From positions 1 through 38,897 of the forward strand of contig DWZS01000031.1 of assembly GCA_019117445.1 (NCBI GenBank): a stretch of DNA of 38,897 nucleotides. The letters are read 5' to 3'. A program made the position numbers and the translations under genes. The stretch's first letter is position 1; each line of letters begins with the position of its first letter. Positions 10,129 to 38,897 of this stretch are shown piece by piece. The notes beneath the pieces were generated by a model. It was not told the DNA's origin. It made no database searches and worked only from the letters and a program-made list of their open reading frames with translations. The stretch is from Candidatus Limosilactobacillus excrementigallinarum (GTDB taxonomy: Bacteria > Bacillota > Bacilli > Lactobacillales > Lactobacillaceae).

Positions 10129-10614
10129 ATGAGTAAAGTTAGTGTTGTGATGGGCAGTAAATCAGATTGGCCAACGGTTAAAGAAGCTTGCTTGATTTTA
10201 GACCAATTTGGGGTTGATTATGATAAACAAGTGATTTCTGCACACCGGATGCCAAACGAAATGTTCGCTTTTGCGCAAAATGCTGTTAAAAACGGTACCG
10301 CGGTCATTATTGCTTGTGCAGGCGGGGCTGCCCATCTTCCAGGGATGATTGCGGCAAATACACCATTGCCCGTGATTGGTATTCCTGGTCAAACAAAGGC
10401 TTTAGGCGGAATGGACTCATTACTTTCGATTGTTCAGATGCCAGCAGGCATTCCGGTCGCGACTACGGCAATAGGCAATGCGGGAGCCAAGAACGCTGCT
10501 TTATTAGCGCTCCAAATTTTAGGAATCACTAATTCAAAGATTCAACAACAGATTGTTCAGTATCGACAACGGATGCATGATGAAGCAAAAGAAAGCGGGA
10601 ATCATCTTGACTAA
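10129..10614 (+). CDS. purE: N5-carboxyaminoimidazole ribonucleotide mutase
   Basis: Class I PurE converts N5-CAIR to CAIR in IMP synthesis, working after PurK. At 161 aa it matches the family length. VMGSKSDWPT at about 7-16 and the SAHRMP motif at about 41-46 are the signature substrate-binding loops, and AGGAAHLPGM follows. AAGGAGGG at 10113-10120 sits 8 bases before the ATG. It is the first gene of a purE-purK-purB unit and overlaps the purK start by 8 bases. Confidence 0.96.
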   Translation: MSKVSVVMGSKSDWPTVKEACLILDQFGVDYDKQVISAHRMPNEMFAFAQNAVKNGTAVIIACAGGAAHLPGMIAANTPLPVIGIPGQTKALGGMDSLLSIVQMPAGIPVATTAIGNAGAKNAALLALQILGITNSKIQQQIVQYRQRMHDEAKESGNHLD

Positions 10615-11731
10615 CTTTATTCAACCGGGATCAACCATTGGGATTATTGGCGGTGGCCAATTGGGTCAAATGCTGGCGTTAGATGCAAAGCAAACGGGAA
10701 TGAAAGTCATTATTTTGGACCCAACACCGCATTGTCCAGCTGGCCAAGTCGCTGATGAACAGATTATTGCCCCTTATGAAGACGTAGCAGCAATTCAAGA
10801 ACTTGCCCAACGTGCGGATGTCTTAACCTATGAATTTGAAAACGTTGATTTGAAGGCCTTAGAAGATGTGGCAAATCATTCGTATGTTCCCCAGGGAACA
10901 AATTTGTTGTACATTACTAAGGATCGGATTCGGGAAAAGACTTTTTTACACCAAGCGGGATTGAAAACGGCGCCTTTTCAGCCTGTACATAATTCTCAAG
11001 AACTGGAAAACGCGGTGGCCAATATTGGGTATCCGTGTGTTTTGAAAACATGTGAAGGTGGTTATGATGGGCATGGGCAAGTAGTTTTGCATCAAACAGC
11101 TGACTTAGCAAAATGTGCGGAGATTTTAAAGACGCAAAATTGTATTTTAGAAGGTTGGGTTCCTTTTAGAATGGAATGTTCTGTAATGGTGGCCCGTAAC
11201 GAACGGGGAGAGGTCACCACGTTCCCGGTAGCCGAAAATATTCATCATAATGAAATTCTGCATATCAGTATTGTCCCGGCTCGGATTTCACCAGCGTTGC
11301 AAAGACAAGCGCAACAGATGGCGGAACAAATTGCTCAGGCAATTAATTTACGGGGGATTTTAGGGGTGGAGATGTTTGTTGGCCAAGACGACCAGATTTA
11401 CATCAATGAATTAGCACCACGCCCGCATAATTCTGGTCATTATTCGATTGAGGCCTGTAACTTCTCTCAGTTTGCCATTCACAATCGAGCAATTTGTAAC
11501 TGGCCGCTACCACAAATTAGACTTTTACAGCCTGTAGTAATGGTGAATGTACTGGGGCAACACGTTGCAAAAGTCCGTCAGCAAATTGCACAACACCCGA
11601 CTTGGCATTTTCATGATTATGGAAAAGCGGAAATTCGCCATAACCGAAAAATGGGTCACGTAACGATTTTGACAGATGATGTTGAACAGACCCTCCATGA
11701 AGTGGATGCCAGTGAAATTTGGCAGAAATAG
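10607..11731 (+). CDS. purK: 5-(carboxyamino)imidazole ribonucleotide synthase
   Basis: An ATP-grasp enzyme that uses ATP and bicarbonate to carboxylate AIR, giving the substrate of PurE. I choose TTG 10607 as the start (374 aa): GCGGGA at 10595-10600 is 6 bases upstream, it overlaps the purE stop, and the protein then begins [20 protein letters not shown] as PurK proteins typically do. Longer readings from 10553 or 10577 are in frame but lie inside purE. Visible marks are the GGGQLGQM nucleotide-fold loop, [13 protein letters not shown] in the ATP-grasp region and the [11 protein letters not shown] motif near the metal site. Confidence 0.93.
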
Positions 11732-11796
11732 TTTTCCAAAATAATTCAAATCATTATAGAATAGAACTATTGAGAAAAAGAAAGGATTTTAAACCC

Positions 11797-13092
11797 ATGA
11801 TTGATCGCTATACTAGTCCAGAAATGAAGCATATTTGGAGTGACCAGACTAAATACCAATGCTGGTTAGAAGTTGAAATTGCTGCAGATGAAGCCTGGAG
11901 TAAACTTGGCCACATTCCAGCGGAAGATGTAGAAAAAATTAAGCAGAACGCAAAGTTCACGGTCGAGGGGATTAACGAGATCGAAGCAGTAACTCACCAC
12001 GACGTGATTGCCTTTACGCGGGATGTTTCTAAGTCGTTGGGACCTGAACGAAAATGGGTTCATTATGGAATGACGAGTACCGACGTCGTTGATACTGCGC
12101 AGGGTTACCGTTTAAAAAAGGCGAATGATTTATTACGCCAAGATATTGAAGACTTTATGCAAGTCTTAAAAGAAATGGCGGAAAAATATAAGTACACGGT
12201 ATGTATGGGCCGAACTCACGGGGTACATGCTGAGCCAACCACGTTCGGTTTGAAGGCTGCCCGCTGGTATTCAGAAATGAAGCGTAATCGGCAGCGGTTT
12301 GATGAAGCTGCTAAAGGGGTCGAAGCTGGTAAAATTTCTGGAGCAGTCGGCACTTTTGCTGAAATTGATCCATTTGTGGAAGAATATGTTTGCAAGAAGT
12401 TAGGGATTCGTCCACAGGAAATTTCGACCCAAGTTTTACCACGGGATTTACATGCTGCGTATATTGCCGCGATTGCGCTCGTTGGGACCAGTCTGGAAGA
12501 GATGGCTACGGAAATTCGTTCCTTGCAACGGACGGAAATTCATGAAGTTGAAGAACATTTTGCCAAGGGACAAAAGGGTTCTTCTGCAATGCCACATAAG
12601 CGGAACCCGATTGGTTCGGAAAATATTTGTGGCTGTGCACGGATGCTCCGGGGGTACATGGTACCAGCTTATGAAGACGTTTCACTATGGCACGAACGAG
12701 ATATTTCACACTCAAGTGCTGAACGAATGATTTTGCCTGATGCGACCTCGTTACTAGACTATATGTTGAAGCGGTTTGGACGGATTTTGAAGAACTTAGA
12801 TGTCTTCCCAGAAACAATGAAGAAGAATATGGACAAGACCCTCGGCTTAATTTACTCTGGACGGGTTTTGCTAAAGCTAGTTAATTCAGGGATGACCCGG
12901 GAAGCGGCATATGATTTGATTCAACCATATACCGCTAAGTGCTGGGCTGAACAAATTCCGTTCCGCCCATTGCTAGAAGCTGATCCAACAATCCAAAAAC
13001 AATTGACCAAGGAAGACTTGGATGATGCATTTGACTATCATTGGCACTTACGCCACGTTGATGATATCTACAAGCGAATTGGGTTAGATTAA
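11797..13092 (+). CDS. purB: Adenylosuccinate lyase
   Basis: Acts twice in purine synthesis: it cleaves SAICAR to AICAR and adenylosuccinate to AMP, releasing fumarate. The 431-aa size is standard. The fumarase/aspartase superfamily signature [11 protein letters not shown] is present at about residue 262, as are [14 protein letters not shown] and [14 protein letters not shown]. The ATG at 11797 has AAAGGA 10 bases upstream; the frame is open further back into the purK end. It lies 65 bases after purK and could be co-transcribed with it. A strong terminator follows. Confidence 0.96.
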
Positions 13093-13199: not shown

Positions 13200-13544
13200 T
13201 TATTTGGTATCCTTATCAGGAACGCCAGCTAATACTTGAAAAATATCTGCTAATGATATGTTTTGATTATTGAATTTTTTATTAATAAGTAGTTGACGAA
13301 ATTCTTCGATAGATATTTTTTCAGTTTGTTTATACGGAACTACGGAAGAAGCACCTTGATTCATACTGGTTTGAAAGGTAATGATTAACCCCTCATTACT
13401 ATCTAACTTAACGGTGTATTGTTCGTAATAAGCGGGAATGTCATAATTACCGTTAAGTTGTTTGTGTTTTTTAAAAAAGTTAATGATAAGGTCATTAAAT
13501 TTATCTTTGGATTGTAAGGCAACTTGCCAGTCTTGACTTGTCAT
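13200..13544 (-). CDS. Unknown 114-aa protein at the end of the carbohydrate operon
   Basis: I do not recognise this protein. It is 114 aa, with no signal peptide or membrane segment, lysine- and asparagine-rich, with a predicted alternation of short helices and strands. An AGGAAAGGA ribosome binding site lies upstream of the ATG at 13544, with a gap of about 11 bases. It is 25 bases downstream of the SGNH hydrolase gene on the same strand and ends at a shared terminator, so it is most likely the last gene of that operon. It may be accessory to the pathway or an unrelated passenger. Confidence 0.7.
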   Translation of the reverse strand: MTSQDWQVALQSKDKFNDLIINFFKKHKQLNGNYDIPAYYEQYTVKLDSNEGLIITFQTSMNQGASSVVPYKQTEKISIEEFRQLLINKKFNNQNISLADIFQVLAGVPDKDTK

Positions 13545-13569
13545 GATTAAACATTTCCTTTCCTAAATT

Positions 13570-14253
13570 CTATAGTGAATTAATTTTAAAAGCGATTGTT
13601 TTAGCTAATCTTTCATGACCCTCAGCGTTAGGATGAAGCCCCTCCAATGATAACTTTGGGAATAAGTAGGGGTTATAATTTCCAACATTAAAAATATCTA
13701 ACACGGGAATTGAAAAATAATTACCGACTTGTTTGATGGCATTTACATAATCAATAAATGTGTACCCCAATTTATTTTTTCGTAATTTTCCCTGATTATC
13801 ATATAATCGCCATTCAGCATGATTCGATTTTGCTGGAGTGATTAAGAGAAGCTTAGCAAATGGGTTTTGGCTTGCTAAATTGGTAATCATATATTTAAAG
13901 GATCCGCAGAAGGTATAAATATTGATGTCATCATTAATTGAACCAATTGGTCGATTACTGGCAAAATCATTGGTGCCACCAAAAATAGTGATGACTTTTT
14001 GATCCTTAACGTCTTGAATTTGATCACCAATAAATCCACGGTCATCGTCTCCCTTAGCAATGGTTGCACCACCAATGCCAGTGTTCCTAGGGCAAGTCCC
14101 TAAGTATTTCTCCATTCTTGATACATAACTTGGAATATCTGGTCGTGATGCAGCTCCATGAGTAAAACTATCACCAATACAAGTGATGGGTTGGTTACGA
14201 TAAGGGAAGAGAATATTTTTTATATCTATATCTTCATTATTCATTTTGATCAT
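13570..14253 (-). CDS. SGNH/GDSL-family hydrolase, probable carbohydrate acetylesterase
   Basis: A cytoplasmic 227-aa SGNH hydrolase; such enzymes beside glycosidases usually remove O-acetyl groups from sugars. Block I is GDSFTHG with Ser29 as nucleophile, the block II glycine lies in GIGGATI, and block III is GGTND with Asn95. The catalytic His is His207 in EGLHPN. The residue three before that His is normally Asp (DxxH) but here is Glu204, which is unusual. No signal peptide is seen. I place the start at ATG 14253 because GGAGAAAGA lies just upstream; it overlaps the permease gene by 17 bases, so the two are coupled. The real substrate is not shown by sequence. Confidence 0.85.
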   Translation of the reverse strand: MIKMNNEDIDIKNILFPYRNQPITCIGDSFTHGAASRPDIPSYVSRMEKYLGTCPRNTGIGGATIAKGDDDRGFIGDQIQDVKDQKVITIFGGTNDFASNRPIGSINDDINIYTFCGSFKYMITNLASQNPFAKLLLITPAKSNHAEWRLYDNQGKLRKNKLGYTFIDYVNAIKQVGNYFSIPVLDIFNVGNYNPYLFPKLSLEGLHPNAEGHERLAKTIAFKINSL

Positions 14254-15823
14254 TCTTTCTCCAAAAAGTAATTGAATCGTAATTAACACCAGTTAGGTCT
14301 TCACAAATAGCCTTGGTATGAGGATCGACATCATTCATACTGCCACCCTTTTGAAGACGCACTAACTCAGTAGAAAGAACTTTAAAAGTACTCTTGCTGA
14401 GGTGGAAACGACTAGCAAAAAACATGGCAAGCAGAATCATACCACCAACACCAACGGACATAATTAAGGTAATCATTATAATGGCGCTATGGGGTTGTGT
14501 AAGAGAACCGGTTGCTGATTTTTTAAAGCCAGCAAAATCGAGTAAGTAACCAGCCACGACCCCAGCTAATCCTTGACTGATTTGATTAATAAAAGTCATA
14601 ACAGATGCAAATAATCCAGAACGATTTTTACCAGTTACTAGAGTGTCTAAATCTGGAATGAATGGGAAAGCATTCCATGGTGTGAAATATAAGATGTAAA
14701 GCCCAATTTCATATAAAACCATGCCAATAATTAAGTAGAACATGATATGGGATGGTTTCATCAATGCAATTAATCCCCACATAATGGCACTAATTAATAT
14801 TAAAGAATACCCAAAAAGATCCATTGCTCGATAGCTAATTTTTGTAATTACAAAGCCTGCAATGATGGTAACTGGAATGGATACAATGCTGAGCGATTGT
14901 AAAAAGCCAGAGGTACTGGTAGATTTTCCAAGAACATAAACGATGTAGTAGACAAAGACGGTACTAAATAAAATGGAAGCAAAATAGGAACTCAAGTAGA
15001 TTCCCATATGAATTCGGAAAGTTTTAATTTTGAACGTTGAAAAATAGTTTTTAAGTTCAGCTTTTAAGCCGTGATTGTTTCCATTTTCCGCCTTTGCTTC
15101 AATATTTAATTGCTTGGCCTCTGCTTTAGTGACAAAGTGTTCCCAGGTTGTTTTATAGCAAACCCAAATAAGAAAAACGGTAACAACAGAAAATATAATC
15201 TGCATGAGTAGGTATGGAATTGGTGATGACTTTGGGTAAAATTTGAAAAGCATTGCCGGAACAAATTGAGTTAACATGTTACCTAATCCAGCAATAACCA
15301 TTCTGGTAGTCGACATGTAAGTTCGTTCGTTAAAGTCCTTAGTCATTTCATTAGGTAAACATTCCCAAGGAATTTGTAAAACGGACATTAGAACGGTTGT
15401 TAGTAGGTAAGTAACAAGGTAGTACCAGTAGGACATACCAGAAATCCATAATGTAATAGGAACTAGGACAGCTGGAATGGCGACTAATAAGAAAATGTGC
15501 CGCCGACCATATTTACGACCAAGCCGGTATTTATAAATATTATCTGAAATGTTTCCCATAACTAGTGAAGCAATGGCATCAGCTACCCGACCAATCAGGA
15601 AAATGGTAGCCCCTTGTCCGGCTGACAAGCCACAGAATGTGGTGTAGAAGAACAGCAGCCAGGCCCCCACTAAACCTTGCATTGAAATGCTAAAAAATGA
15701 AAATACACCAAATCCAATTGAGCGACCGATTTCAATTTTACCGCGGCTTTGATAAATTTTTCGATTTTGATATTCATCCCAGCCATCATGGAGTGAAGTG
15801 GAAGAATGATTTGCGTTATTCAT
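14237..15823 (-). CDS. GPH-family (MelB-like) MFS sugar:cation symporter
   Basis: A 528-aa, 12-segment permease of the glycoside-pentoside-hexuronide:cation symporter family, which includes melibiose, xyloside and glucuronide carriers. The family loop after TM2 is visible as GNISDNIYKYRLGRKYGRR. Hydrophilic tails flank the membrane core, about 35 residues before TM1 and about 55 after the last segment. AAAGGAG lies 8 bases before the ATG. It is 18 bases downstream of the GH115-like gene and overlaps the SGNH gene, so it probably imports the substrate of both. No phosphotransferase IIA-like domain is seen at the C-terminus. Confidence 0.88.
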   Translation of the reverse strand: MNNANHSSTSLHDGWDEYQNRKIYQSRGKIEIGRSIGFGVFSFFSISMQGLVGAWLLFFYTTFCGLSAGQGATIFLIGRVADAIASLVMGNISDNIYKYRLGRKYGRRHIFLLVAIPAVLVPITLWISGMSYWYYLVTYLLTTVLMSVLQIPWECLPNEMTKDFNERTYMSTTRMVIAGLGNMLTQFVPAMLFKFYPKSSPIPYLLMQIIFSVVTVFLIWVCYKTTWEHFVTKAEAKQLNIEAKAENGNNHGLKAELKNYFSTFKIKTFRIHMGIYLSSYFASILFSTVFVYYIVYVLGKSTSTSGFLQSLSIVSIPVTIIAGFVITKISYRAMDLFGYSLILISAIMWGLIALMKPSHIMFYLIIGMVLYEIGLYILYFTPWNAFPFIPDLDTLVTGKNRSGLFASVMTFINQISQGLAGVVAGYLLDFAGFKKSATGSLTQPHSAIIMITLIMSVGVGGMILLAMFFASRFHLSKSTFKVLSTELVRLQKGGSMNDVDPHTKAICEDLTGVNYDSITFWRKNDQNE

Positions 15824-15841
15824 AATAATGACTCCTTTGCA

Positions 15842-17890
15842 TTAATTTTCATTAAGTGATTCACGTAACTTATTGGCTAGTTGATCGTCATTTAATTCAC
15901 GATGGGTGGTCCATAACAACATTACTCGCGCGTCGCCTGGTAATTTAATAAAGTGACGTTCCCACCCGTCTTCATCGGCGGTATCACCAATGGTGCGAAT
16001 GTATTGACGAATAAAGCGCAGTTTATTAATGGTCAGTGGCACGTTATTGTCTGCATCATTTTCATAAAAATCACGCCATTTTGGTGAAGGATTATGATTA
16101 ATCACTTCGATGATTTTTTTCATGCTTTGTAAGGCACAGTCTGCATGTAAAAAGGCAGTAATGAGGTTATTATCTGATTGAGCGACTTGAGCGGCTTGAT
16201 AAGCATGAATTAGTTCATTTAATGCAGAGAGCCCTTGTGCTTGATTAATTGCGCTCATGTAAATGTCCCCATACAAAACACAACGGTTATGTTGATCTTT
16301 CATTTTTAGAAGAAGGACTTCTAATTGGCAAATTAATTTAGACCATTTATTTAATGAAGGTTCGATCATTTTTTGAATGTTAGCAAGGTCTTTTGCTAAA
16401 GTACCTTCGTTAACTAGCCAAGTGGAATCAGTTAGTTGGCCATTTGGAGTTACCCAAGCTTTAATTATTCGCCGAATTAGGAATGGGGCAAATTCATCGC
16501 CTGCTCTTTCATCAGTATGTTGGCCATATTGAATAATACTGTTCCAATATTGTTTATAGCTATCAATGATTTCAGCATTAAATTCGTTATAGTAATGATG
16601 AACGTATTCTTGCAAGATTTCATCTAAGGAACGACGGTGATAATCGACTAACCAACTTTTGGCATACTCACGTAGATATAAAATATGTGGTTTAATATTC
16701 CCAGTATTAATTAATTCGAAAGTGTCTAAACTATTTTGCCGAGCTTTTATTAACTCATTAGAAACAAAAGCGGGACTATTGGACATTAGGCCAAGAAAAT
16801 TAGAGGCTTGCAAATCGTGGAAGCCGGCGTGACAGTAAAGACCACGTTGCCGTTTTTTGGGATTAGGAACTTTTAGAATTGGGATTCGTGGATTGTCATT
16901 TCCCTGGCGACGGGAAACCATTTTTCCATATCCACTATCAGCCCAAATTTCGATGACATCATTTGGAAAATCAAGCAGGCCTTCCCGATATAAACTAGTT
17001 AGTTCCCCATAAATATTGATGGCCATTGGAGCCTTAGGATCATATTTTTTAACCATTTCGTATTGAGTACGGATGATTTGGTTAATAACTTTTGCGATTT
17101 CCTTTTTGGTCCATTTACGGCTGTGATCATCCAGCCAAAATGGTTTATCCCCTTGTCCCCGAAAGCCGAGACTATAAACTACTTTCATATTCCGTTGTGC
17201 TAAAATTGCTTTTTTCCAAAGACCTTGGAATAATTGAGGATATTTTAAATAAGAAGCAGATAGATGGGGATATTCACGAGCAAACATTTTTGCTCCAAGC
17301 GGTTCTGGATGGTGTTGAGCAATGATTAATCCATAATTACTTGCTAATTGTCGATTACGCTGCGAAGTTAAGCCAGTGCCTGGAATGATCATATTGCAAC
17401 CTACTCGTAGGGCTGCTTCAAATGCCTGTTCCCAGACATATTGATTCGAGTCATGGTCTTTCCATGTGTTTATTAATAATTCGTCATTAATAAACCATCC
17501 ACGATATTTAGTTTTGTAGTTAGGGAGGTGTAGGTTGAAATTAGACCATGAAATATATGCTTGCTTTTGAATTGGGGTATCCATCCAATACCAAAAATCA
17601 TCAATTTTTAATATTGATCTTGATACTGCTAGGGCACCATACATTACTCCAAGATTGCTTCCCGACTTAATGATTACTTGGTGATCATGTAAATCAATCT
17701 GATATTCTTCAGGATTAGCTGTGAGTTGCTCATCAACTTGAAGGTGAATTTCATTTGGCTCTTTCCTGGCGGTAGTTACTTTGTTGATGTCTCGCTGAAG
17801 AATTTCTCGTGCTCGCTTCAATACAGAATCAAACAAATTAGATGTAGTCACTTGAGTTGCTTTAGAAATGATAAAAAATGGTTTATCCAT
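15842..17890 (-). CDS. Glycoside hydrolase family 115-like protein (putative intracellular alpha-glucuronidase)
   Basis: A 682-aa protein resembling GH115, whose known members release (4-O-methyl)glucuronic acid from xylan or its oligosaccharides. The N-terminal GH67/GH115-type beta domain (about 1-110) has SGSNLGVMYGALAVSRSIL and FWYWMDTP. Then come motifs in family order: RGWFINDE at 130-137, HHPEP at 193-197, GFRGQGD at 242-248, SLYREG near 300-304, WADSGYG at 316-322 and GLYCHAGFHD at 350-359. It is shorter than typical GH115 enzymes (about 800-1000 aa) and lacks a signal peptide, so it should act on imported oligosaccharides. The start is ATG 17890, with AAGGA 8 bases upstream; a longer TTG reading would include that site. 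It is first in a four-gene operon. GH115 assignment is by motif resemblance; the exact uronide is not known. Confidence 0.8.
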   Translation of the reverse strand: MDKPFFIISKATQVTTSNLFDSVLKRAREILQRDINKVTTARKEPNEIHLQVDEQLTANPEEYQIDLHDHQVIIKSGSNLGVMYGALAVSRSILKIDDFWYWMDTPIQKQAYISWSNFNLHLPNYKTKYRGWFINDELLINTWKDHDSNQYVWEQAFEAALRVGCNMIIPGTGLTSQRNRQLASNYGLIIAQHHPEPLGAKMFAREYPHLSASYLKYPQLFQGLWKKAILAQRNMKVVYSLGFRGQGDKPFWLDDHSRKWTKKEIAKVINQIIRTQYEMVKKYDPKAPMAINIYGELTSLYREGLLDFPNDVIEIWADSGYGKMVSRRQGNDNPRIPILKVPNPKKRQRGLYCHAGFHDLQASNFLGLMSNSPAFVSNELIKARQNSLDTFELINTGNIKPHILYLREYAKSWLVDYHRRSLDEILQEYVHHYYNEFNAEIIDSYKQYWNSIIQYGQHTDERAGDEFAPFLIRRIIKAWVTPNGQLTDSTWLVNEGTLAKDLANIQKMIEPSLNKWSKLICQLEVLLLKMKDQHNRCVLYGDIYMSAINQAQGLSALNELIHAYQAAQVAQSDNNLITAFLHADCALQSMKKIIEVINHNPSPKWRDFYENDADNNVPLTINKLRFIRQYIRTIGDTADEDGWERHFIKLPGDARVMLLWTTHRELNDDQLANKLRESLNEN

Positions 17891-17925
17891 AATTTCCATC
17901 CTTATAAACAAATTTCGCGCTTAAT

Positions 17926-17939
17926 TGTAAGCGTTTTCT
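17926..17939 (+). promoter_or_regulatory. cre site (CcpA operator) in the araC/GH115 intergenic region
   Basis: TGTAAGCGTTTTCT matches the consensus TGWAANCGNTNWCA at 13 of 14 positions. It fills the spacer just upstream of the araC -10 and is about 36 bases before the GH115-like start on the other strand, so CcpA bound here could shut both directions in the presence of glucose. Confidence 0.75.
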
Positions 17940-17940
17940 A

Positions 17941-17949
17941 TGATATAAT
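17941..17949 (+). promoter_or_regulatory. Extended -10 promoter of the araC regulator
   Basis: TGaTATAAT is a perfect extended -10 lying two bases after the cre site. The -35 position (TTAATT 17921-17926, 17-base spacing) is weak. Confidence 0.6.
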
Positions 17950-17991
17950 CTTTGCAAACTCAGACTAAATTATTGCAAAAGGAGACCCGTT

Positions 17992-18861
17992 TTGCTTCAA
18001 TATAATGATTTCCCACTAGACGGGACGATTAAGCAAGATATTGTTTGTTTTCACCATTTAGATAAACATCACACTAGTCCATTTCACAGACATCTTGATC
18101 ATGTTGAATTGTTATTAATATTAAACGGCGATGTTGAGTTTTTTTCTAAAAAAGTTAATGTGAATTTAAAGCCAGGTGATTTAATATGTATTCCCAATGG
18201 AGTTTGGCACCGTATTTATACCGATTCATCCAAGAAATATGAGCGGGTTTTTATTAATATTAGAGTTAGTACCATTGCCCGACTATCAACGTTACAAACT
18301 GATCTAATGCGGTGCTTTCAACATTTTCCCTTAGGATGGGATGTCAATATTGTCAGTCTAACTAAGAACGAAAAAATGGAGTTTATTGCGCTTTGTCATC
18401 GTATTATTAATTATTTGCAATCGGAAGCCACACTGGACTATGGCTATGATCTTCAATTAGATATATTACAAGCTCGATTATTGCTGGCGATTAATAGTAA
18501 ATTACAGCGGCCTAAGAAAATACCGCAGCTTGTTCATTCTAGTCGATTGCAGCAACTACTGGATTTTATTGATACTCATTTAGATCAAGATCTAAGCTTA
18601 AAGGAACTTTCGAGGCGGTTTTATTTGCATCCAGACTACTTGAATCGATATTTCCATAATCATATGGGGTTATCGTTACATTTATATATCAAGCAATTAC
18701 GAACAGATAAGGCATGCCGATTGCTTACTAATGGAGAACGTATCAATCAGGTTGCCAGCGACTGTGGGTATCAGAATTACAGTAGTTTCATTCGAGCATT
18801 TACTAATGAAATGGGAATATCTCCTGGAAAATATCAACGACAAAATGTAAATCGCTCTTAA
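17992..18861 (+). CDS. AraC-family transcriptional regulator with cupin sensor domain
   Basis: A 289-aa regulator divergent from the GH115-like operon and probably its activator. The N-terminal cupin (about 20-100) carries PFHRHLDHVELLLILNGDVE and LKPGDLICIPNGVWHRI, the sugar-sensing fold. The C-terminal double helix-turn-helix (about 185-287) has DQDLSLKELSRRFYLHPDYL and the family tail CGYQNYSSFIRAFTNEMG followed by ISPGKYQ. AAAAGGAG at 17977-17984 sits 7 bases before the TTG start; no ATG is suitably placed. Its promoter overlaps a cre site, so its own synthesis is probably under catabolite control. The effector is inferred to be the sugar or a product handled by the operon. Confidence 0.9.
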   Translation: MLQYNDFPLDGTIKQDIVCFHHLDKHHTSPFHRHLDHVELLLILNGDVEFFSKKVNVNLKPGDLICIPNGVWHRIYTDSSKKYERVFINIRVSTIARLSTLQTDLMRCFQHFPLGWDVNIVSLTKNEKMEFIALCHRIINYLQSEATLDYGYDLQLDILQARLLLAINSKLQRPKKIPQLVHSSRLQQLLDFIDTHLDQDLSLKELSRRFYLHPDYLNRYFHNHMGLSLHLYIKQLRTDKACRLLTNGERINQVASDCGYQNYSSFIRAFTNEMGISPGKYQRQNVNRS

Positions 18862-18916
18862 CTACACCACTAACTTAATCTCTTAAATGCTTGTTATCCT
18901 CCTTAGGCCATTTGAT

Positions 18917-18945
18917 TTGCAGTTTCTCATAATCTGTTCAATAAT
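18917..18945 (+). promoter_or_regulatory. Candidate promoter of the P1B ATPase gene
   Basis: TTGCAG at 18917-18922 and AATAAT at 18940-18945 have a 17-base spacing and end 20 bases before the start codon. No terminator was found after the araC gene. Confidence 0.5.
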
Positions 18946-18964
18946 TTAATTATTAGAAGGACAG

Positions 18965-20785
18965 GTGAGTAAGATGACAAGTAATCGGCAAAAACTATTA
19001 GTTTTATGTGGAATTGCAGTTTTAGCGGCCGTTTGTCAATGGGGATTGCAGGTCCCGCTTTGGGCGCAAATTATCAACAGTGTTGCTGGCGGATGGATGG
19101 CTTTGGTGATGTTTATTGATATGCTCAAGAAGCTGCGCGCGGGCGATTATGGTGTTGATTTACTGGCCATTACCGCGATTGTTGCAACACTGGCGGTGGG
19201 TGAGTATTGGGCAGCAATGGTCATTTTGTTAATGCTCATCGGTGGCGATTCTTTAGAGGACTACGCTAATCAACGGGCTCATAGTGAACTCAGTACTTTG
19301 CTGGATAACACACCGCGGATTGCTAATCGTCTAATTGATGGCAAGGTCATGGCTGTCGATGTCAATGAATTAAAAGTCGGGGATCAAGTAGTCATTAAAC
19401 CCGGAGAACAAGTTCCGGTTGACGGGATCGTAGTGGAAGGAATTAGCTCAGTTGATGAGTCTATGCTCACTGGAGAATCCTTGCCGGTTAATAAAAGTTG
19501 TGGTGAAGAATTACTGTCTGGCTCAGTGAATGGTGATGGCCGGTTAGTGATGAAGGTTCAACGGTGTGCTGCAGATAGTCAGTACCAACAATTAGTTGCC
19601 TTGATTGAACAATCTGATCAACAACCCGCCCATTTTGTTCGTTTAGCCGATCGTTATGCATTACCCTTTACGCTCATTTCGTATCTCATTGCGGGAATTG
19701 CATGGTGGGTAGCAAAAGATCCAATTCGATTTGCTCAAGTTTTAGTCGTGGCATCACCGTGTCCGTTGATTTTAGCAGCACCAGTGGCCTTTGTTTCCGG
19801 AATGAGTCGGAGTTCCACTAACGGGATTGTGGTAAAGACTGGGGACGTGGTCGAAAAGCTGGCAACGATTCGTTCGGCTGCCTTTGATAAGACCGGTACA
19901 TTAACGCACGGTAACTTAATGGTCAGTGCTGTGGTTCCCCATGGTGAGATTACGGCGAAACGGTTGCTCCAGATCACCGCAAGCGTGGAACAAGATTCGA
20001 ACCACGTGTTAGCGCAATCAGTAGTACAAGCAGCTCGTCAGCAATCAATTTCTTTATTACAACCAACTGCAATGCATGAAACTACGGCTCAGGGAATTGA
20101 AGCGATGATTGATCAGCAGAAAGTCAAGGTCGGCCGCAGGACCTTTGTCGATCCTGATAATCAAATTACGGCCGCGGATGTCACCGCCATTTACGTGGTG
20201 GTGGATGGCCATTATTGGGGCCGGATTGAATTTCAGGATCAGCTCCGTAGTGAGACGCCGCGGGTAATTAACAAATTACGAGACTGTGGTGTCCAAACGA
20301 TTATGATGTTAACTGGGGATCAAGAGCAAATCGCTCAACGTATTGCAGCAAAAATTGGTATTACGCAAGTCTTTGCGGGATTATTACCAGAACAGAAGGT
20401 CATGCATCTACAACAGCTCCCTGATCAGGAACGCCCAAGCATGATGGTTGGAGATGGTGTGAATGATGCGCCGGTATTGAAAGTGGCTGATGTTGGGGTT
20501 GCCATGGGTGCTCGAGGCTCGACCGCCGCAAGTGAATCAGCGGACGTGGTGATTCTAGCAGATGATTTACGTAAAGTGGCGAATGCCATTGTGATCGCTC
20601 AAGACACATTACGGATTGCCAAACATGCCGTATGGATTGGGATTGCGGTGTGTGTGATTTTGATGCTGATTTGTAGTACTGGGGTTGTACCAACGATTGT
20701 TGGGGCCTTTTTGCAAGAAGTTGTCGATACAGTTTGTATCTTATGGGGTCTCCGGGCACGGCATGATTTTAAAAATCTAATGTAA
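18965..20785 (+). CDS. P1B-type heavy-metal-transporting ATPase with SPC motif
   Basis: A 606-aa metal pump powered by ATP, without any N-terminal heavy-metal-associated domain. Motifs in order are TGES at 169-172, the membrane SPC metal motif at 264-266 (in VVASPCPLILAAP), the phosphorylation site DKTGT with Asp308, MLTGD at about 448-452 and GDGVND at 496-501. The usual HP dipeptide of P1B pumps is HV here (NHVLA, 346-350). SPC in place of CPC points away from copper and towards Co, Zn, Ni, Fe or Cd; the sequence does not decide which. Two starts are possible: GTG 18965 with AGAAGG 4 bases away, or ATG 18974 with AGGTG 6 bases away. It stands alone between the sugar locus and purC, with its own terminator. 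Confidence 0.88.
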   Translation: MSKMTSNRQKLLVLCGIAVLAAVCQWGLQVPLWAQIINSVAGGWMALVMFIDMLKKLRAGDYGVDLLAITAIVATLAVGEYWAAMVILLMLIGGDSLEDYANQRAHSELSTLLDNTPRIANRLIDGKVMAVDVNELKVGDQVVIKPGEQVPVDGIVVEGISSVDESMLTGESLPVNKSCGEELLSGSVNGDGRLVMKVQRCAADSQYQQLVALIEQSDQQPAHFVRLADRYALPFTLISYLIAGIAWWVAKDPIRFAQVLVVASPCPLILAAPVAFVSGMSRSSTNGIVVKTGDVVEKLATIRSAAFDKTGTLTHGNLMVSAVVPHGEITAKRLLQITASVEQDSNHVLAQSVVQAARQQSISLLQPTAMHETTAQGIEAMIDQQKVKVGRRTFVDPDNQITAADVTAIYVVVDGHYWGRIEFQDQLRSETPRVINKLRDCGVQTIMMLTGDQEQIAQRIAAKIGITQVFAGLLPEQKVMHLQQLPDQERPSMMVGDGVNDAPVLKVADVGVAMGARGSTAASESADVVILADDLRKVANAIVIAQDTLRIAKHAVWIGIAVCVILMLICSTGVVPTIVGAFLQEVVDTVCILWGLRARHDFKNLM

Positions 20786-21005: not shown

Positions 21006-21731
21006 ATGGGTGAACTATTATATTCCGGAAAAGCAAAACAAATGTGGGCGACGGAGGATCCGGATTTATTACGTGTTGTCTACCTTGACCAAGCAACCAT
21101 GTTGAATGGCAAACGAAAGGACCATTTTGCTGGTAAAGGTACAGCTGCCAATGATATTTCAACGTTAGTTTTTGAATATTTAATCCGTAAAGGAATTCCA
21201 ACGCACTTTGTGAAACGGCTCTCGCCAACAGAAGAATTAGTAAAAAAGTGTGAAATGATTCGATTAGAATTTGTTACCAGAAATATTGTTGCGGGGCATT
21301 TCGCCTCACGCTTCGGACTAAAGGAAGGGACGCCATTAGCCCAACCGGTAGAAGAAACGTTTTATAAGAGTGATGAACTGGATGATCCCTTTGCTAACGA
21401 ATCAGATGCCATTGCTATTCAAACATGCACGGCGAAGGAATATCAACAATGTTGGGATTTAGCACGGCGGTGCAACGTACTATTGACTGCGCTTTTTGCA
21501 AAGGCGGGGATGAAATTAGTTGATTTTAAGCTTGAGTTTGGCAAGTTAGCAGACGGCACTTTGGTTCTTGCAGATGAATTTTCACCAGATAATTGTCGAC
21601 TGTGGGATCGTGAAACGAATGCCCACCTGGATAAAGATGTCTTCCGCAAGGGGTTGGCTGATATTACGACAACTTATGATGAAGTATATGCACGTTTGCA
21701 AAAGGCAGTCATGGAGGAAAATGATGATTAA
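21006..21731 (+). CDS. purC: Phosphoribosylaminoimidazole-succinocarboxamide (SAICAR) synthase
   Basis: Joins CAIR and aspartate with ATP to make SAICAR. The 241-aa protein begins with the family pattern LLYSGKAKQMW and contains GKRKD, KRLSPTEELVKKCE and VDFKLEFG, followed by ADEFSPDNCRLWD, the conserved substrate and ATP regions. AAGGAG at 20989-20994 lies 11 bases before the ATG. It is the first gene of a nine-gene operon and overlaps purS by 8 bases. Confidence 0.96.
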   Translation: MGELLYSGKAKQMWATEDPDLLRVVYLDQATMLNGKRKDHFAGKGTAANDISTLVFEYLIRKGIPTHFVKRLSPTEELVKKCEMIRLEFVTRNIVAGHFASRFGLKEGTPLAQPVEETFYKSDELDDPFANESDAIAIQTCTAKEYQQCWDLARRCNVLLTALFAKAGMKLVDFKLEFGKLADGTLVLADEFSPDNCRLWDRETNAHLDKDVFRKGLADITTTYDEVYARLQKAVMEENDD

Positions 21732-21969
21732 AGTTCGAGTTTTCGTCACCTATAAACAATCAGTTTTTGATCCCCAAGGGGATACGATTACTAAAACCGT
21801 TCACGCCATTGGTCATTCTGAAGTGGAATCTGTGCAGGTTGGTAAGTTTTTTGACTTGAGCTTAAAAACTACCCCAGACCAAGTGGCAACAGTCATTAAA
21901 GACATTGCGACGAATTTATTGGTGAACTTCAATATGGAAACTTACACTTACCAAGTGCTGGAGGGCTAG
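21724..21969 (+). CDS. purS: Phosphoribosylformylglycinamidine synthase subunit PurS
   Basis: The small 81-aa bridging subunit of the PurLQS complex, which makes FGAM and channels ammonia from PurQ to PurL. It reads [20 protein letters not shown] then a conserved VGKFFDL core. I choose ATG 21724 because GGAGG at 21713-21717 is 6 bases upstream; ATG 21721 is only 3 bases away. A longer in-frame reading back to 21568 lies wholly inside purC and is not real. It stops two bases before purQ. Confidence 0.94.
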
Positions 21970-21971
21970 TT

Positions 21972-22646
21972 ATGAAGATTGCGGTAATTGTCTTTCCTGG
22001 TTCTAACTGTGATGTTGATATTTATGAAGCACTGGCGACCGTTTGCCACGCTGATGTCCAATACGTTTCCCATCGTGAAAGAAGTCTGGCTGGTTTTGAT
22101 GCGGTGATGCTGCCAGGGGGCTTTTCATATGGTGACTACCTGCGAGCGGGAGCGCTAGCACGGTTTACAAACATTATGCCGGCAATTATTCAAATGGCTA
22201 ACGAAGGGAAACCAGTATTTGGGACTTGTAATGGATTTCAAATCTTAACTGAAGCTGGCCTATTGCCTGGAGCTTTAAAACACAACAATAGTCAGCAATT
22301 CATTTGCAAAACGGTTCCGTTAGAAGTGGTGAATAATCAGACGTTGTTTACTACTAAATATCAAGCACGTGAACGAATTGCGTTACCGATTGCCCATGCT
22401 GATGGTTGTTATGTTGCCAGCAAGGAGACGCTCAACCAGTTGGAACAAAACCACCAAGTAGTCTTTCGGTACGCAGCGGAGAATCCGAATGGCTCTTTGA
22501 GAAATATTGCTGGGATTACAAATCGTCGAGGAAATGTCTTAGGGATGATGCCACACCCGGAGAGGGCGGTGGAAGCCCTGCTAGGGAATACAGCTGGGCG
22601 ACGTCTCTTTGAATCACTGTTAGCAAATGGCACCGTAAAAGCATAG
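21972..22646 (+). CDS. purQ: Phosphoribosylformylglycinamidine synthase subunit PurQ (glutaminase)
   Basis: A class I glutamine amidotransferase of 224 aa that hydrolyses glutamine to feed ammonia to PurL. The triad is visible: Cys86 in FGTCNGFQ, then His195 and Glu197 in PHPER. The N-terminus [14 protein letters not shown] is typical of PurQ. GGAGGG lies at the end of purS, a few bases before the ATG, so the two genes are coupled. Confidence 0.96.
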
Positions 22647-22658
22647 TGAGGGAAAACG

Positions 22659-24887
22659 ATGAAGCAAGCAATGACACCAGAAGAAATCAAAAAGCAAAAG
22701 CCTTACCTTGATTGGAGTTTGACGGAAAAGGAATATAACTATATTGCCGATCAATTATTAGGTCGTTTACCAAACTATACGGAAACTGGTTTATTTGCAG
22801 CAATGTGGAGTGAACATTGTTCTTATAAAAAATCGAAGCCGGTTTTACGTCTCTTTCCAAATAAAAACGCTCGAGTTTTACAGGGCCCGGGTGAAGGTGC
22901 GGGAGTAGTTGATATTGATGATGGACAGGCAGTCGTTTTTAAGGCGGAAAGCCATAACCACCCGACAACAGTGGAACCCTATCAAGGTGCCGCAACCGGG
23001 GTGGGCGGAATTCTCCGGGACATCTTTAGTATGGGGGCCCGACCAATCGCGTCACTGGATTCGCTACATTTTGGTGAATTAACGGATCCCCAAATGCGGA
23101 TGAAAGTGGCCCAAACAATCAAAGGCATTGGCGACTATGGAAATTGTATGGGGATTCCCACGGTGGCTGGCGAAACAACGTTTGATCCTTGCTATCAAGG
23201 TAATATTTTGTGTAACGCGATGAGTGTTGGTTTGATGAATCAAAAAGATCTCCAGCAAGGGAAGGCTGCCGGAATTGGTAATGCGGTGATGTATGTAGGT
23301 GCCAAAACCGGGCGTGATGGAATTCATGGAGCCACCTTTGCTTCTGCGGACTTTTCTGATGAGAATGCGACGCAACGTTCCGCCGTCCAAGTCGGCGATC
23401 CGTTTATGGAAAAGCTGCTGATGGAGGCATGTTTGGAATTAATTCAAAAGCATGCTGATTGGCTGGTTGGGATCCAAGATATGGGAGCTGCTGGAATTGT
23501 CTCCTCCAGTGCTGAAATGGCAAGTGAAGGCCAGAGTGGTATGAAATTGAACCTAGATTTAGTACCACAACGGGAAACGGGAATGTCCGCATATGAAATT
23601 ATGCTGAGCGAATCCCAAGAACGGATGCTGCTTTGTGTGGTGAAAGGCCATGAAAAGGATGTCCGAGAAATTTTTAACCGGTATGATCTTGATGCGGTTA
23701 CGATTGGACGGATTATCGAAGGCCACGATTACATTCTCGAACACGACGGTGAAGAGGTTTGTCACATTCCAGTATCAACGTTAACGGATGATGTTTTAGA
23801 AGAACCAAGTACTGAACGAGAACCGCAACGTCTGCAAACTGCTCGAGAAGAACCAGTTTGGCAGCCGGTTGTGAATGAACCGGGACAAGTACTTCGCCAA
23901 CTGCTGCAACAAGCAACGATTGCCAGTGATGAAGTTTTAACGCAACAGTATGATAGTCAGGTTCGGACGTCAACGGTGGTTGGTCCGGGGAGTGATGCCG
24001 GCGTGATTCGGATTCGTGGCTACCATAAAGGTTTGGCGATGACGACTGACGGGAATGGCCGTTTTGTTTACTTGGATCCCGAAATCGGTGGACAAATGGC
24101 GGTTACTGAGGCATATCTCAATATTGTGGCGAGCGGTGCAGAACCATTAGCAATTACCGACTGCCTTAATTATGGTGACCCAAATGATCCAGAGATCTTC
24201 TGGGAATTGCACCATTCAATTGAAGGAATGGCGACTGCGTGCTGCATCTTTGATACTCCGGTCATTTCAGGAAACGTTTCTCTTTATAACGAGAACAATG
24301 GTCGAGCAATTTATCCAACCCCGATGGTGGGCATGGTGGGCTTAATTAAAAATCTTGATCACGTGATTTCGTCATTTGCTACCCATGCCGGAGATGATGT
24401 TTACCTTATTGGTCAAACTGGTAATGATTATGCTGGATCAGAACTGCAAAAATTGATGACGGGGCAAATATCTGGGACGCTATCAAAAGTCAACTTACAA
24501 AGAATTCAGGAATATTGTGGGCGCCTGCATTCTGAAATGGTGGCTGGTCACGTAACTGCCGCCCATGATGTCAGTGAAGGTGGCCTTGGTGTCGCATTTG
24601 CTGAAATGTTATTTGCTGGTAAGACTGGAATGAATTTAGATTTACGTGATCTCACCGCTCCGCAATTGTTTAGCGAAACTGCGGGACGAATGGTAGTGAC
24701 AGTACCAACAGCTTTTAAGAAGGAATTTGAAAACGTAATGGGGAATGATGCCCGTTGGGTCGGAACGGTTACTAACACCCATTGGTTAGAAGGACACCTG
24801 CAAGGCGCGGATTTCAATGAAGATTTGGCGGAACTAAAGAGAGAATATAAGGAGGCGCTCCCGTGCCAGCTGAAGTTAAAGGATTAA
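22659..24887 (+). CDS. purL: Phosphoribosylformylglycinamidine synthase subunit PurL (small form)
   Basis: The 742-aa catalytic subunit of the PurLQS complex, converting FGAR, ATP and ammonia to FGAM. The length is that of the small Gram-positive PurL, consistent with separate PurS and PurQ genes next to it. Motifs include [30 protein letters not shown] followed by [15 protein letters not shown], and a second AIRS-like half with [11 protein letters not shown] and [12 protein letters not shown]. The end overlaps purF by 25 bases. Confidence 0.96.
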
Positions 24888-26326
24888 ATGAAGAGTGTGG
24901 TGTCTTTGGCATTTTTGGTGCACCACATGCGAATCAACTGACTTACCTAGGGTTGCATACTTTGCAGCATCGTGGACAGGAAGGTGCCGGTATTGTAACG
25001 ACTGATCATGAGGAAATGTATCAGCATCGTGACCGTGGACTGTTGGCTCAGGTTTTCAAAAATCAAGCGGATATGGAGGGCTTGCTTGGTGATACTGCAA
25101 TTGGTCATGTACGTTATGGAACGGCAGGACGCGACGCAATCCAAAATGTTCAGCCGTTTCTCTTTCGCTTTCATGATGGTGATGTGGCATTAGCCCATAA
25201 TGGCAATTTAACGAATGCAGTCACATTACGTCGCCAACTCGAAGATGAAGGGGCTGTTTTTCAGTCAGACTCAGATACGGAAATTCTCATTCACTTGGTA
25301 CGTAAACACATTCAGGATGGTTTTATTCCGGCCCTTAAACAAAGCTTGAACGAAGTCAAAGGTGGATTTGCATTTTTGCTGTTGCAAAAGGATCGCTTAA
25401 TTGCTGCTTTAGATCCGAATGGGATTCGTCCATTATGTATTGGCCGGCTCGCGAATGGTGCTTATGTGGTGGCAAGTGAATCTTGTGCACTGGATATCGT
25501 AAACGCCCAATTTGTGCGGGACGTCCAACCGGGTGAGCTATTGATTATTGATCGTGATGGTTTACACGAAGACCGGTATACGAACAATACGCAATTAGCG
25601 ATCTGTTCGATGGAGTACATCTACTTTGCGCGTCCCGATTCAATTATTCATGGAGTGACGGTTCATAACGCTCGTAAACGAATGGGTAAGTTGTTGGCAC
25701 GTGAACATCCTGTGGAAGCAGATATGGTAATTGGGGTGCCGAATTCCTCCCTTTCTGCGGCTAGTGGCTATGCCGAAGAGATTGGCCTGCCGTATGAAAT
25801 GGGTTTGATTAAAAGTCAGTACGTAGCGCGGACTTTTATCCAACCCACCCAAGCGTTGCGAGAACGCGGGGTCCATATGAAACTGTCGGCGGTCCGGGGC
25901 GTGGTTCAAGGACGGCGCATTGCGGTTGTGGACGATTCCATCGTTCGTGGAACCACGTCGCGGCAAATTGTGCAGATGTTACGAGCCGCTGGTGCGAAGG
26001 AAGTTCATATGCTGATTGCTTCTCCACCATTTAAATTTCCGTGCTTTTACGGGATTGATGTCTCCACACGGGCAGAATTAATGGCTGCCCACTTTAGTGT
26101 CGAAGAAATGCGTCAACAAATTGGTGCTGATTCACTGAGTTTCTTATCGGTGCCCAATTTAGTTCGAGCAATTAATGTACCAGATGCAGGGACGGCACCT
26201 TATGGCGGACTTACCGTTGCCTATTTCAATGGTGACTATCCAACGCCACTTTACGATTATGAGGCTAAATACCTAGCCTCGTTGAATAAGCAGGAACGTC
26301 GTGAACGAAGGGAGCGAGAAGCGTGA
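24863..26326 (+). CDS. purF: Amidophosphoribosyltransferase
   Basis: The committed first step: makes 5-phosphoribosylamine from PRPP and glutamine. The 487-aa protein starts at GTG 24863 with AAGGAGG upstream, inside the end of purL. An 11-residue leader precedes Cys12 ([11 protein letters not shown]); in the Bacillus-type enzyme this leader is removed so that the Cys becomes the N-terminal nucleophile. The PRPP-binding loop [13 protein letters not shown] is at about 355-367. The Bacillus-type enzyme carries an Fe-S cluster; several downstream cysteines are present but I did not match each ligand. It overlaps purM by 4 bases. Confidence 0.96.
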
Positions 26327-36762: not shown

Positions 36763-37134
36763 ATGCAAACAATGATGATTTTAGTGATTGCAGTTCTATT
36801 AATTGGGGCAATTATTTGGTGGTTTTTTGGTAAACATGAACAGGCGGTTGAAACTGCACAAGCTCGAAATAACCGTCAAGAAGCAACAGTGGTGGTTAAA
36901 GGTGGATATTCTCCAGAAACCATCGTTTTGAAAAAGGGCGTTCCGGCAACCCTGAACTTTGAAATGAAGGATTCAACCGCTTGTCTCTCACATGTAGTCT
37001 TTGATAAGTTGGGGGTCGACCGTGACCTAACAAAGCAAAAGGTTACTAGTATCGAGATTCCTACTGATCATGCTGGTGATGTGAACTTTGCTTGTGGAAT
37101 GAATATGTTTCACGGAAAGGTTGTTGTTAAATAA
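36763..37134 (+). CDS. cupA: CupA-like membrane-anchored cupredoxin copper chaperone
   Basis: A 123-aa protein with one N-terminal membrane segment (about 4-22) and a cupredoxin domain. Likely Cu(I) ligands are Cys74 and His77 in ACLSH, and Cys111, Met113, Met115 and His117 in ACGMNMFHG. This is the layout of pneumococcal CupA, which binds Cu(I) and passes it to CopA. I choose ATG 36763, preceded by AAAGGA with an 11-base gap; ATG 36751 abuts that site, and the longest frame (from 36640) begins inside the upstream terminator and crosses both operators. Its stop overlaps the copA start, so the two act as a unit. The domain is taken to face the cell surface, by analogy. Confidence 0.85.
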
Positions 37135-38897
37135 TGCGATTCAACATACAGAAACGATTTTGGATTTCATTAATATTTAGCCTCCCTTTGTTAGTTCAAA
37201 TGATTTTGATGCCTTTTCACTTCATGATTCCCAATTATGAAGCAATGGCATTTATAGTGACGACCGTAGTTATGGCTGTTGGTGCTTGGTCGTACTGGGT
37301 TAGCGCATGGGCAGCGTTTTTAAGACACAATGCAAATATGAACACCCTGGTAGCAATTGGAACGCTGATTTCTTATGGGTATAGTATTTTTGCAATGGTG
37401 ACGGGGCGACCAGTTTATTTTGAAAGTGCTGCATTTATTACCGTTTTTGTTTTACTAGGTGATCTGATGGAAGAACGGATGCACCAACGAGCATCGAATG
37501 CATTGGCAAAGCTGGTGGATTTACAGGTTAAGCACGCCTTAGTTTATAAAGATGGTCAATATGTCGCTACCCCAATTGAACAAGTTAAAGCTGGTGATGA
37601 AGTTCTTGTAAAACCTGGTGAGAAAATCCCGCTTGATGGAATTGTAACGAGTGGTTCGTCGACGGTGAACGAATCCATGATTACCGGTGAAAGTATGCCG
37701 GTTAGTAAGCAGCCTGACGATCCAGTAGTTGGTGCTACCATCAATGGTGAAGGGCGTTTGGTAGTCCAGATTACTAAGGTGGGGCAAGAAACCATGCTGG
37801 CCCAAATTGTCGAAATGGTGAAGAAGGCACAGACGAGTCGTGCACCAATTCAAAATCTGACTGATAAGATTTCACAATTTTTCGTTCCAGCAGTTTTAAT
37901 TATTGCGATTTTAACCTTCGCTATCTGGACAGTTTTTCTACATGTTTCGATGGTTCAGGCGATGCTGTATGCAGTATCGGTAATTGTGATTGCTTGTCCC
38001 TGTGCGTTAGGCTTAGCAACTCCGACTGCGTTAATGGTTGGGACTGGGCGTGCGGCAAAATTAGGAGTCCTGATTAAGGAAGGTCAAGCCTTAGAAATTG
38101 TTGATCAATTGAAGACAGTGATTTTTGATAAAACTGGTACGATCACTACGGGTAAACCAGTTGTGACGGATGTAGTTGGTGACCAAAGGCTAACTTTGCA
38201 AATTGCGGCGAGTCTTGAACAAGCTTCAGAACACCCACTCGCAAATGCAATTGTGCGAAAAGCACAGGAGAAGCAGATTCAATTGCTTCCAGTTGATCGG
38301 TTTAAAGCGGTTCGTGGTCATGGAGTTCAAGGAATATTTAATGGTGAACCTGCATTTGTTGGCCGTCGAGAGATGGTCGATCAATTAGGCGATGATTTGA
38401 ACAATCAATGGAAGAAACTGGAATTAGAAGCTAAGACTGTGGTCGCTGTTTCGCTGAAAAAGCAAGTAGTAGGACTAGTTGCCATTCAGGATGCACCTAA
38501 ACCAACGAGCGCTGAAGCAATTCGAAAACTAAATGCGCGAGGGCTACGAACGGTGATGCTGACTGGCGATAACCAAACAGTGGCTGAAACAATTGGCCAA
38601 CAAGTTGGAATAAAAAAGGTCATAGCAGGAGTGCTGCCGAATGAAAAGGCAGACTATGTAGCCCAGGAGCAGGAGAACGGTAAAGTTGCTTTTGTGGGCG
38701 ACGGTATTAATGATGCTCCAGCATTAGCAAAGGCAGATGTTGGTATCGCGATGGGGTCAGGAACTGATATTGCAATTGAATCTGGCGAGATTGTGTTAGT
38801 ACAAAATGACCTTTTAGGGGTAGTTAAAGCATTAGAAATCAGTCGCAAGACGTTCGACCGGATCAAGTTGAATCTTTTCTGGTCACTAATTTATAAT
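37134..38897 (+). CDS. copA: Copper-exporting P1B-1 ATPase (partial, runs off the window)
   Basis: The first 588 residues of a Cu(I) efflux pump; the frame is open to the last base. No N-terminal CxxC metal-binding domain is present; the protein begins directly with the membrane domain. Motifs are TGES at 184-187, the membrane CPC at 288-290 ([20 protein letters not shown]), DKTGT with Asp332, the SEHPLA motif, [13 protein letters not shown] and, at the very end, FWSLIYN, the YN signature of P1B-1 copper pumps. ATG 37134 shares a base with the cupA stop and has only a distant AAAGG, so it probably relies on coupling. The missing metal-binding domain may be replaced by CupA. Confidence 0.93.

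Follow-up and report, generated by a model that had tools for sequence, protein, structure and literature searches.

We have analysed a stretch of 38,897 nt of contig DWZS01000031.1 (hereafter the window) from Candidatus Limosilactobacillus excrementigallinarum, whose assembly GCA_019117445.1 comprises 1.63 Mb in 93 contigs and is 93% complete. The window carries a compact module built around a short glycoside hydrolase of family GH115. Four co-directional genes, encoding an orphan protein, an SGNH/GDSL esterase, a sugar symporter and the GH115 protein, face a divergently transcribed AraC-family regulator (Table 1). This arrangement, first proposed in a first-pass annotation of the DNA, was confirmed in the open reading frames (ORFs): intergenic gaps within the module amount to 18 and 25 bases, and the longest esterase ORF overlaps the symporter gene. 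Read from a TTG codon the GH115 ORF covers 15842-17911 (689 aa), and from the ATG at 17890, which is preceded by AAGGA, it encodes 682 aa. We propose with moderate confidence that the module serves the uptake and cleavage of small uronic-acid-capped oligosaccharides, the aglycone being more likely of the galactose type. The existence of an intracellular uronide pathway is well supported by the genome evidence.

Membership of the central enzyme in GH115, which the annotation had read from motifs kept in order, is supported by both sequence and modelled fold. Its match to the PF15979 profile is significant, reaching 176 bits (cut-off 27) over profile positions 5-326 of 335, and comparison of its structure model indicated that domain A, the TIM barrel B and the helical domain C of the GH115 fold are retained, the alignment covering 4c90 residues 40-665 only. 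The closest solved structure by sequence was the arabinogalactan-active BtGH115A (2.1e-16 with the single sequence, 4.4e-30 with a profile); the closest fold outside GH115 was GH138 of rhamnogalacturonan II (RG-II). The C-terminal domain PF17829, common among characterised GH115 proteins and not known to be required for CAZy membership, gave no match in the window protein at E-values up to 1; the long lactobacillus GH115 of locus L053 carries it. As previously noted for this short protein, there is no sign of a signal peptide, the N-terminus not being hydrophobic: by hydropathy only, with no signal-peptide program, the first 60 residues reach a top mean of 1.01 per 15 residues, and the enzyme is probably cytosolic. 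In this respect it is unlike the nine CAZy GH115 candidates of PMC13059095, which had signal peptides according to that article.

In BoAgu115A, the residues Phe203, Asp206, Arg328, Asp332, Glu375, Tyr420 and His422 are described, in PMC3879575, as (probable) contacts of glucuronic acid (GlcA) or as positions whose change lowers activity by at least 300-fold. Mapped through alignments to PDB structures, these seven core residues, the acids Asp206, Asp332 and Glu375 among them, were identical in all 35 proteins compared, namely 23 short lactobacillus proteins, nine relatives from other Bacilli and three long GH115s. Beyond this core the short forms have diverged. Trp249, Asp424 and Val426, also named in PMC3879575, are not kept; the metal-site Asp424 is replaced by Gly, Ala, Thr or Ser, Trp245 by Ile or Val and Met248 by Thr, the latter two positions lining the methyl-group channel, while Lys374 of the BoAgu115A xylan cleft is Gly in 32/32 short-form proteins and the position of wtsAgu115A Tyr408 is occupied by Phe. 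The window GH115 is a member of a distinct short clade, which shares catalytic domain, A-C fold and core residues with the xylan-directed enzymes BoAgu115A, wtsAgu115A, SdeAgu115A and AxyAgu115A but lacks their C-terminal domain, metal-site Asp, Trp245, Met248 and Lys374. BtGH115A, believed to be monomeric, likewise lacks the metal-site Asp (Ser395; both points from PMC9063842), yet it has a chain of 783 aa, shows 20% identity across 538 structurally aligned residues and retains the Trp, Met and Lys missing from the short clade, so that the short clade is unlike BtGH115A too. Cleft residues had been considered as judges of the substrate and were dropped, because in the alignment BtGH115A, an enzyme without xylan activity, retains the counterparts of Trp245, Met248, Lys374 and Tyr408; their alteration does not count against xylan alone.

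Table 1. Coordinates of the module and of other features discussed in the text (positions refer to the window or to the locus named)
Feature	Location	Strand	Family match or remark
Orphan protein, 114 aa	13200..13544	-	without family above cut-off
SGNH/GDSL esterase, up to 239 aa, likely start ATG 14253 or 14244; predicted O-deacetylase	13570..14289	-	PF13472 2.7e-20
MFS_2/GPH-type symporter, 528 aa; predicted uronide importer	14237..15823	-	PF13347 1.1e-39
Short three-domain GH115, 682 aa, probably cytosolic; predicted alpha-glucuronidase	15842..17890	-	PF15979 1.4e-51
Presumed CcpA cre-like pattern, AraC/GH115 intergenic region	17925..17939	+	exact match, 0 mismatches
Divergent AraC-family regulator, 289 aa, cupin and HTH	17992..18861	+	PF12833 (HTH_18) 1.5e-20; PF07883 6.3e-9
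Halves of split purine cluster	window 10129-13092 and 21006-26326
P-type ATPases adjoining GH115 in other lactobacilli	L064 6805-8640; L065 11111-12946
AraC regulators with N-terminal GH43	L062 4403-6478; L064 13987-16161; L065 4671-6743; L067 4819-6891
Beta-helix proteins, partly GH136-like	L093 6159-7955; L056 13412-15892; L011 1681-6456
DUF2264/LacLM stretches	L058 12866-17747; L059 12622-17500

The genes of the module recur together. In surveys that included the window's own genome, PF15979 was matched in 20/330 genomes of the family, spread over 10/40 genera, and GH115 in 3/50 genomes of the genus; the earlier view of such a system as unexpected in lactobacilli was therefore overstated, all the more as GH115 is entered in CAZyme tables for Limosilactobacillus reuteri (PMC12741103) and Lactobacillus rhamnosus MY-1 (PMC11241047). 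Among the literature matches listed (titles and abstract starts), there was no study of a lactobacillus GH115 enzyme or of a GH115-symporter pair. Taking the 330-genome samples for PF15979, the glucuronate isomerase UxaC and the symporter as one set, given their equal size and labels, and scoring up to four symporter candidates per genome, the symporter was found at E 1e-150 or better in 18 genomes, all of them GH115-positive, and in 0/310 GH115-negative ones. The two GH115-positive genomes without such a match hold a long GH115 only (G129) or a symporter split in two ORFs adjoining GH115 (G353). Fisher tests of the association with GH115 gave P = 9e-28 for the symporter and 8e-16 for UxaC, shared ancestry being ignored in both. 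At the level of the 23 short-form loci, which include the window, range from 5.1 to 38.9 kb and are in some cases cut by contig ends, the symporter sits within 8 kb of the short GH115 in all but one (22/23), the exception being a 5.1-kb contig that ends just past GH115. A short GH115 is likewise followed by the symporter, 71% identical, on a plasmid of Melissococcus plutonius. None of the nine relatives from other orders of Bacilli has this symporter, and GH115 and symporter distances over 19 loci showed no correlation (r 0.11), so that co-inheritance is not shown by distance correlation. Since the GH115 match recurs in genus and family and the gene pair recurs with it, we do not regard the module as a product of chance.

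As for the full gene set, the symporter is the most frequent partner of GH115, and the esterase and the AraC regulator (13/23 loci each) and the orphan (11/23) recur less often. The GPH permease of the first-pass annotation scored 136.7 bits against PF13347, above the cut-off of 27, and 128 bits with the stricter TIGR00792 gph model, below the cut-off of 231; the NCBIfam model for glucuronide transporters gave 73 bits, far under its cut-off of 528. The esterase scored 74 bits against PF13472 (cut-off 32.9), and the alignment contains its GDS, GGTND and GLHP blocks, with a Glu three residues before the His where Lentilactobacillus relatives have Asp; the acetylxylan esterase model NF042968 (AxeA1) yielded 29 bits against a cut-off of 700. 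Deacetylation by this enzyme, also part of the original proposal, is plausible but not universal among the short-form loci: their esterase genes within 8 kb of GH115 fall into three clusters, one of them a weak GDSL match in its member L057, and the Limosilactobacillus caviae module has no esterase. The AraC gene is divergent in 12 of the 13 loci that have it within 8 kb of GH115. Between it and GH115 lies what we take to be a CcpA cre-like site, and the window holds just one other exact match to the pattern; with up to one mismatch allowed, the scan gave 20 sites where 24 would be expected by chance, and the site is suggestive by position, not by number. Promoter and terminator scans of the window yielded no more than shuffled sequence did. 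The orphan protein gave a model with a pLDDT of 74 and no confident fold match. Within 8 kb, each of the loci that have relatives of it holds one to four of them. Members of this conserved family, often directly after sugar transporters, were noted in the window and in L008, L009, L010, L058, L059 and L063.

The product of the enzyme is indicated by the company that GH115 keeps at the genome level. UxaC was present in 20/20 GH115 genomes and in 46/310 others, in agreement with the proposal that a uronic acid is released, and UxuA, of the glucuronate branch, was present in 19/21 GH115 genomes tested. In 10/23 short-form loci, the window not among them, uronate genes are found no more than 8 kb from GH115: UxaC in six, UxuA in five and a mannitol-dehydrogenase-family (UxuB-like) gene in seven, with KDG-kinase-like and KDPG-aldolase genes in two, one member of each gene cluster having been family-scanned. 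The observation that the window locus itself has no xylosidase or uronate isomerase was correct. UxaC is encoded on another contig of the same genome (L085; G000:C19), where the same cluster holds a GH2 gene resembling beta-glucuronidase, one resembling glucarate dehydratase (709 bits, below the model's 829), GH28, GH31, GH30, an MFS_2 transporter and a GntR regulator; the GH2 gene lies ~3.6 kb from UxaC and its closest PDB match is a beta-glucuronidase (3.4e-202). UxaC serves both hexuronates, and the released acid might instead be galacturonic or another uronic acid, which would make the enzyme an alpha-uronidase of a specificity new to GH115. The GH28 gene beside UxaC, the failure to find UxuA in the 93% complete genome of the window, the resemblance to the fold of GH138 and the loss of the GlcA contact Trp249 are in keeping with that idea; we nonetheless consider it improbable in view of the general presence of UxuA, the GH2 gene near UxaC and the conservation of Tyr420 and His422, which bind the carboxylate. 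Release of glucuronic acid is hence the best reading, the last steps in the window strain being unproven.

As to the aglycone, the first-pass annotation had named glucuronoxylan as the substrate. Xylan is the best-known target of GH115 (PMC13059095, PMC9063842), and an SGNH esterase acting on MeGlcA-3-O-acetyl-xylose is reported to boost GH115 (PMC5863359). The module could accordingly handle acetylated glucuronoxylo-oligosaccharides (aldouronic acids), with the xylose used elsewhere or left, and both the esterase genes in 13 loci and the xylose isomerase (XylA) found in 6/20 short-form genomes, those of L. caviae and L. rudii included, fit this possibility. The flanks of three long GH115s, out of seven detected in the same order, served as internal control. 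All three carry xylan genes: L053 has XylA together with GH8, GH3, GH43 and GH67, L071 has GH43, GH8 and xylose genes, and L070 has GH43 and GH67. Homologues of their GH8, GH67, XylA, GH3 and GH43 xylosidase genes were detected in 0/23 short-form loci; a xylulokinase query matched distant FGGY kinases (20-29% identity) in three of them, L006, L010 and L054. XylA had no match in 14/20 short-form genomes, the window's included, and in the latter a GH43 search gave nothing over the cut-off. A weak GH43 match in that genome proved to be a GH32 gene. The exchange of Lys374 for Gly is at most a weak point against xylan, as BtGH115A keeps the Lys without xylan activity. We rejected the assignment of the module as a glucuronoxylan cluster, given that no xylan genes other than the distant FGGY kinases were found in the 23 loci and no XylA, or GH43 over the cut-off, in the window's genome, and glucuronoxylan as the substrate appears doubtful.

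Several short-form loci contain instead genes of the galactan type. A galactanase-like GH43, either free or fused to an AraC regulator, belongs by cluster to 6/23 loci; a Pfam GH43 domain was detected in five of the six and PDB matches were examined in two. For both the free GH43 of L058 and the fused one of L062, the best PDB match was 3nqh, named only as a glycosyl hydrolase, followed by exo-beta-1,3-galactanases. The fusion is also apparent by Pfam in L064, L065 and L067, and L068 encodes a protein with 97% identity to the L067 one. In L058 the GH43 and AraC moieties are separate genes. It would be unusual for an enzyme-like domain, as in the fusions, to act as a sensor. L058 also encodes LacLM and a DUF2264 protein, as does L059 by cluster. 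The DUF2264 copy of L058, situated beside LacLM and GH115, has a beta-D-glucuronic acid dehydratase as its best PDB match (1.5e-21). Other loci contain GH78 (L007), GH127 (L005) or L-arabinose isomerase and an FGGY kinase (L006), and the neighbours of GH115 in the Bacilli relative L072 encode a PL11 rhamnogalacturonan lyase, GH42 and an AGA-YXIM-containing GDSL esterase. The best sequence match among PDB entries, BtGH115A, is likewise active on arabinogalactan. Because some short-form loci hold galactan-type genes and none gave homologues of the xylan genes tested apart from the distant kinases, we favour (methyl)GlcA linked to galactose: an aglycone of galactose type, as in type II arabinogalactan, rhamnogalacturonan I (RG-I) side chains or gums, is more likely than xylose, a small share of the likelihood going to other aglycones. 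Two points weigh against this preference: the neighbouring genes that suggest galactose are confined to a minority of the loci, with no contribution from the window, and the esterases speak for an acetylated substrate, either RG-I or xylan, which constitutes the main argument for glucuronoxylan. The literature leaves open the action of BtGH115A on arabinogalactan, where GlcA is reported as beta-linked (PMC9063842).

A possible extracellular partner was encountered in three lineages. On the Melissococcus plasmid, short GH115 and symporter are followed by a gene whose product is a beta-helix protein, hydrophobic at its N-terminus, and relatives with 39-41% identity occur in the short-form loci L056, from a lactobacillus, and L011, from Gracilibacillus, the latter without the symporter. 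The top PDB match of the Melissococcus protein (3.3e-21) goes by the name of fibronectin type III domain-containing protein and is followed by four entries named lacto-N-biosidase (9e-14 to 1e-11), the best stretches covering ~60-80 N-terminal residues. Against model NF047897 the Melissococcus protein scored 47.6 bits (cut-off 2500) and that of L056 gave no match. All three proteins share an Asp-x6-Asp pair, whose spacing we take to be that of the GH136 catalytic pair. We regard as rather unlikely a route resembling that for lacto-N-biose, in which a secreted GH136-like enzyme would free a (methyl)glucuronosyl-galactose disaccharide to be imported by the symporter and split by GH115 in the cytosol. 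If it were true, the window strain would be a scavenger of disaccharides released by others.

The genomic setting of the module is that of an apparent insertion. The GC content at ~13-19 kb is 0.35-0.38, compared with 0.39-0.47 in the remaining 2-kb windows, and the region 13200-20785, which comprises the GH115 module and a P-type ATPase gene of ordinary GC, separates purE-purK-purB from purC-purQ-purL-purF. It is because module and ATPase interrupt the purine cluster that the low-GC stretch looks like an insertion; the neighbours of the module in L. rudii and L. caviae differ from those in the window. The low GC, the sparse occurrence in the genus and the broken genes of other loci (symporter as two ORFs in L054 and L060, GH115 split in L062) might suggest that the GH115 homologue is decayed or inactive and has survived by chance in inserted DNA. 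Such decay is highly improbable against the full-length open frame, the invariant core residues and the tight gene linkage. The P-type ATPase (window 18965-20785) is ~53% identical to ATPases directly adjoining GH115 in two other lactobacilli, which may reflect chance or a shared transfer. A second P-type ATPase-like ORF, 33% identical to the first, occupies 37134-38897 and reaches the window end.

In our preferred reading, the import and cleavage of uronic-acid-capped oligosaccharides more likely of galactose type, the AraC protein would sense the sugar and activate the operon, possibly under additional CcpA control, and the dedicated symporter would import a short acidic oligosaccharide. In the cytosol, the SGNH enzyme may strip O-acetyl groups where present, as an accessory step, and the short GH115 is predicted to hydrolyse alpha-linked GlcA or 4-O-methylglucuronic acid. 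The freed glucuronate would enter the UxaC route, as suggested by the co-occurrence. A similar outline is known from the GH67 aldouronate system (AguA type), in which an acidic oligosaccharide is imported and its uronic acid removed in the cytosol. GH67 is however a different family, whose active-site residues are not conserved in GH115 according to PMC3879575, and it was found near the long GH115s of L053 and L070 but in none of the short-form loci. Likewise, UidB/UidA combines a symporter of the same broad family with a cytosolic glucuronidase, but the hydrolase belongs to GH2 and the symporter of the module scores far below the glucuronide transporter cut-off.

Overall, a short GH115 clade with its own symporter provides a testable substrate for a transporter group without a known one, and the short enzyme offers a small system for asking what non-xylan GH115 enzymes cut. 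The proposed pathway would show how uronic-acid-capped plant fragments, left unused by others, serve some lactobacilli as a carbon source.

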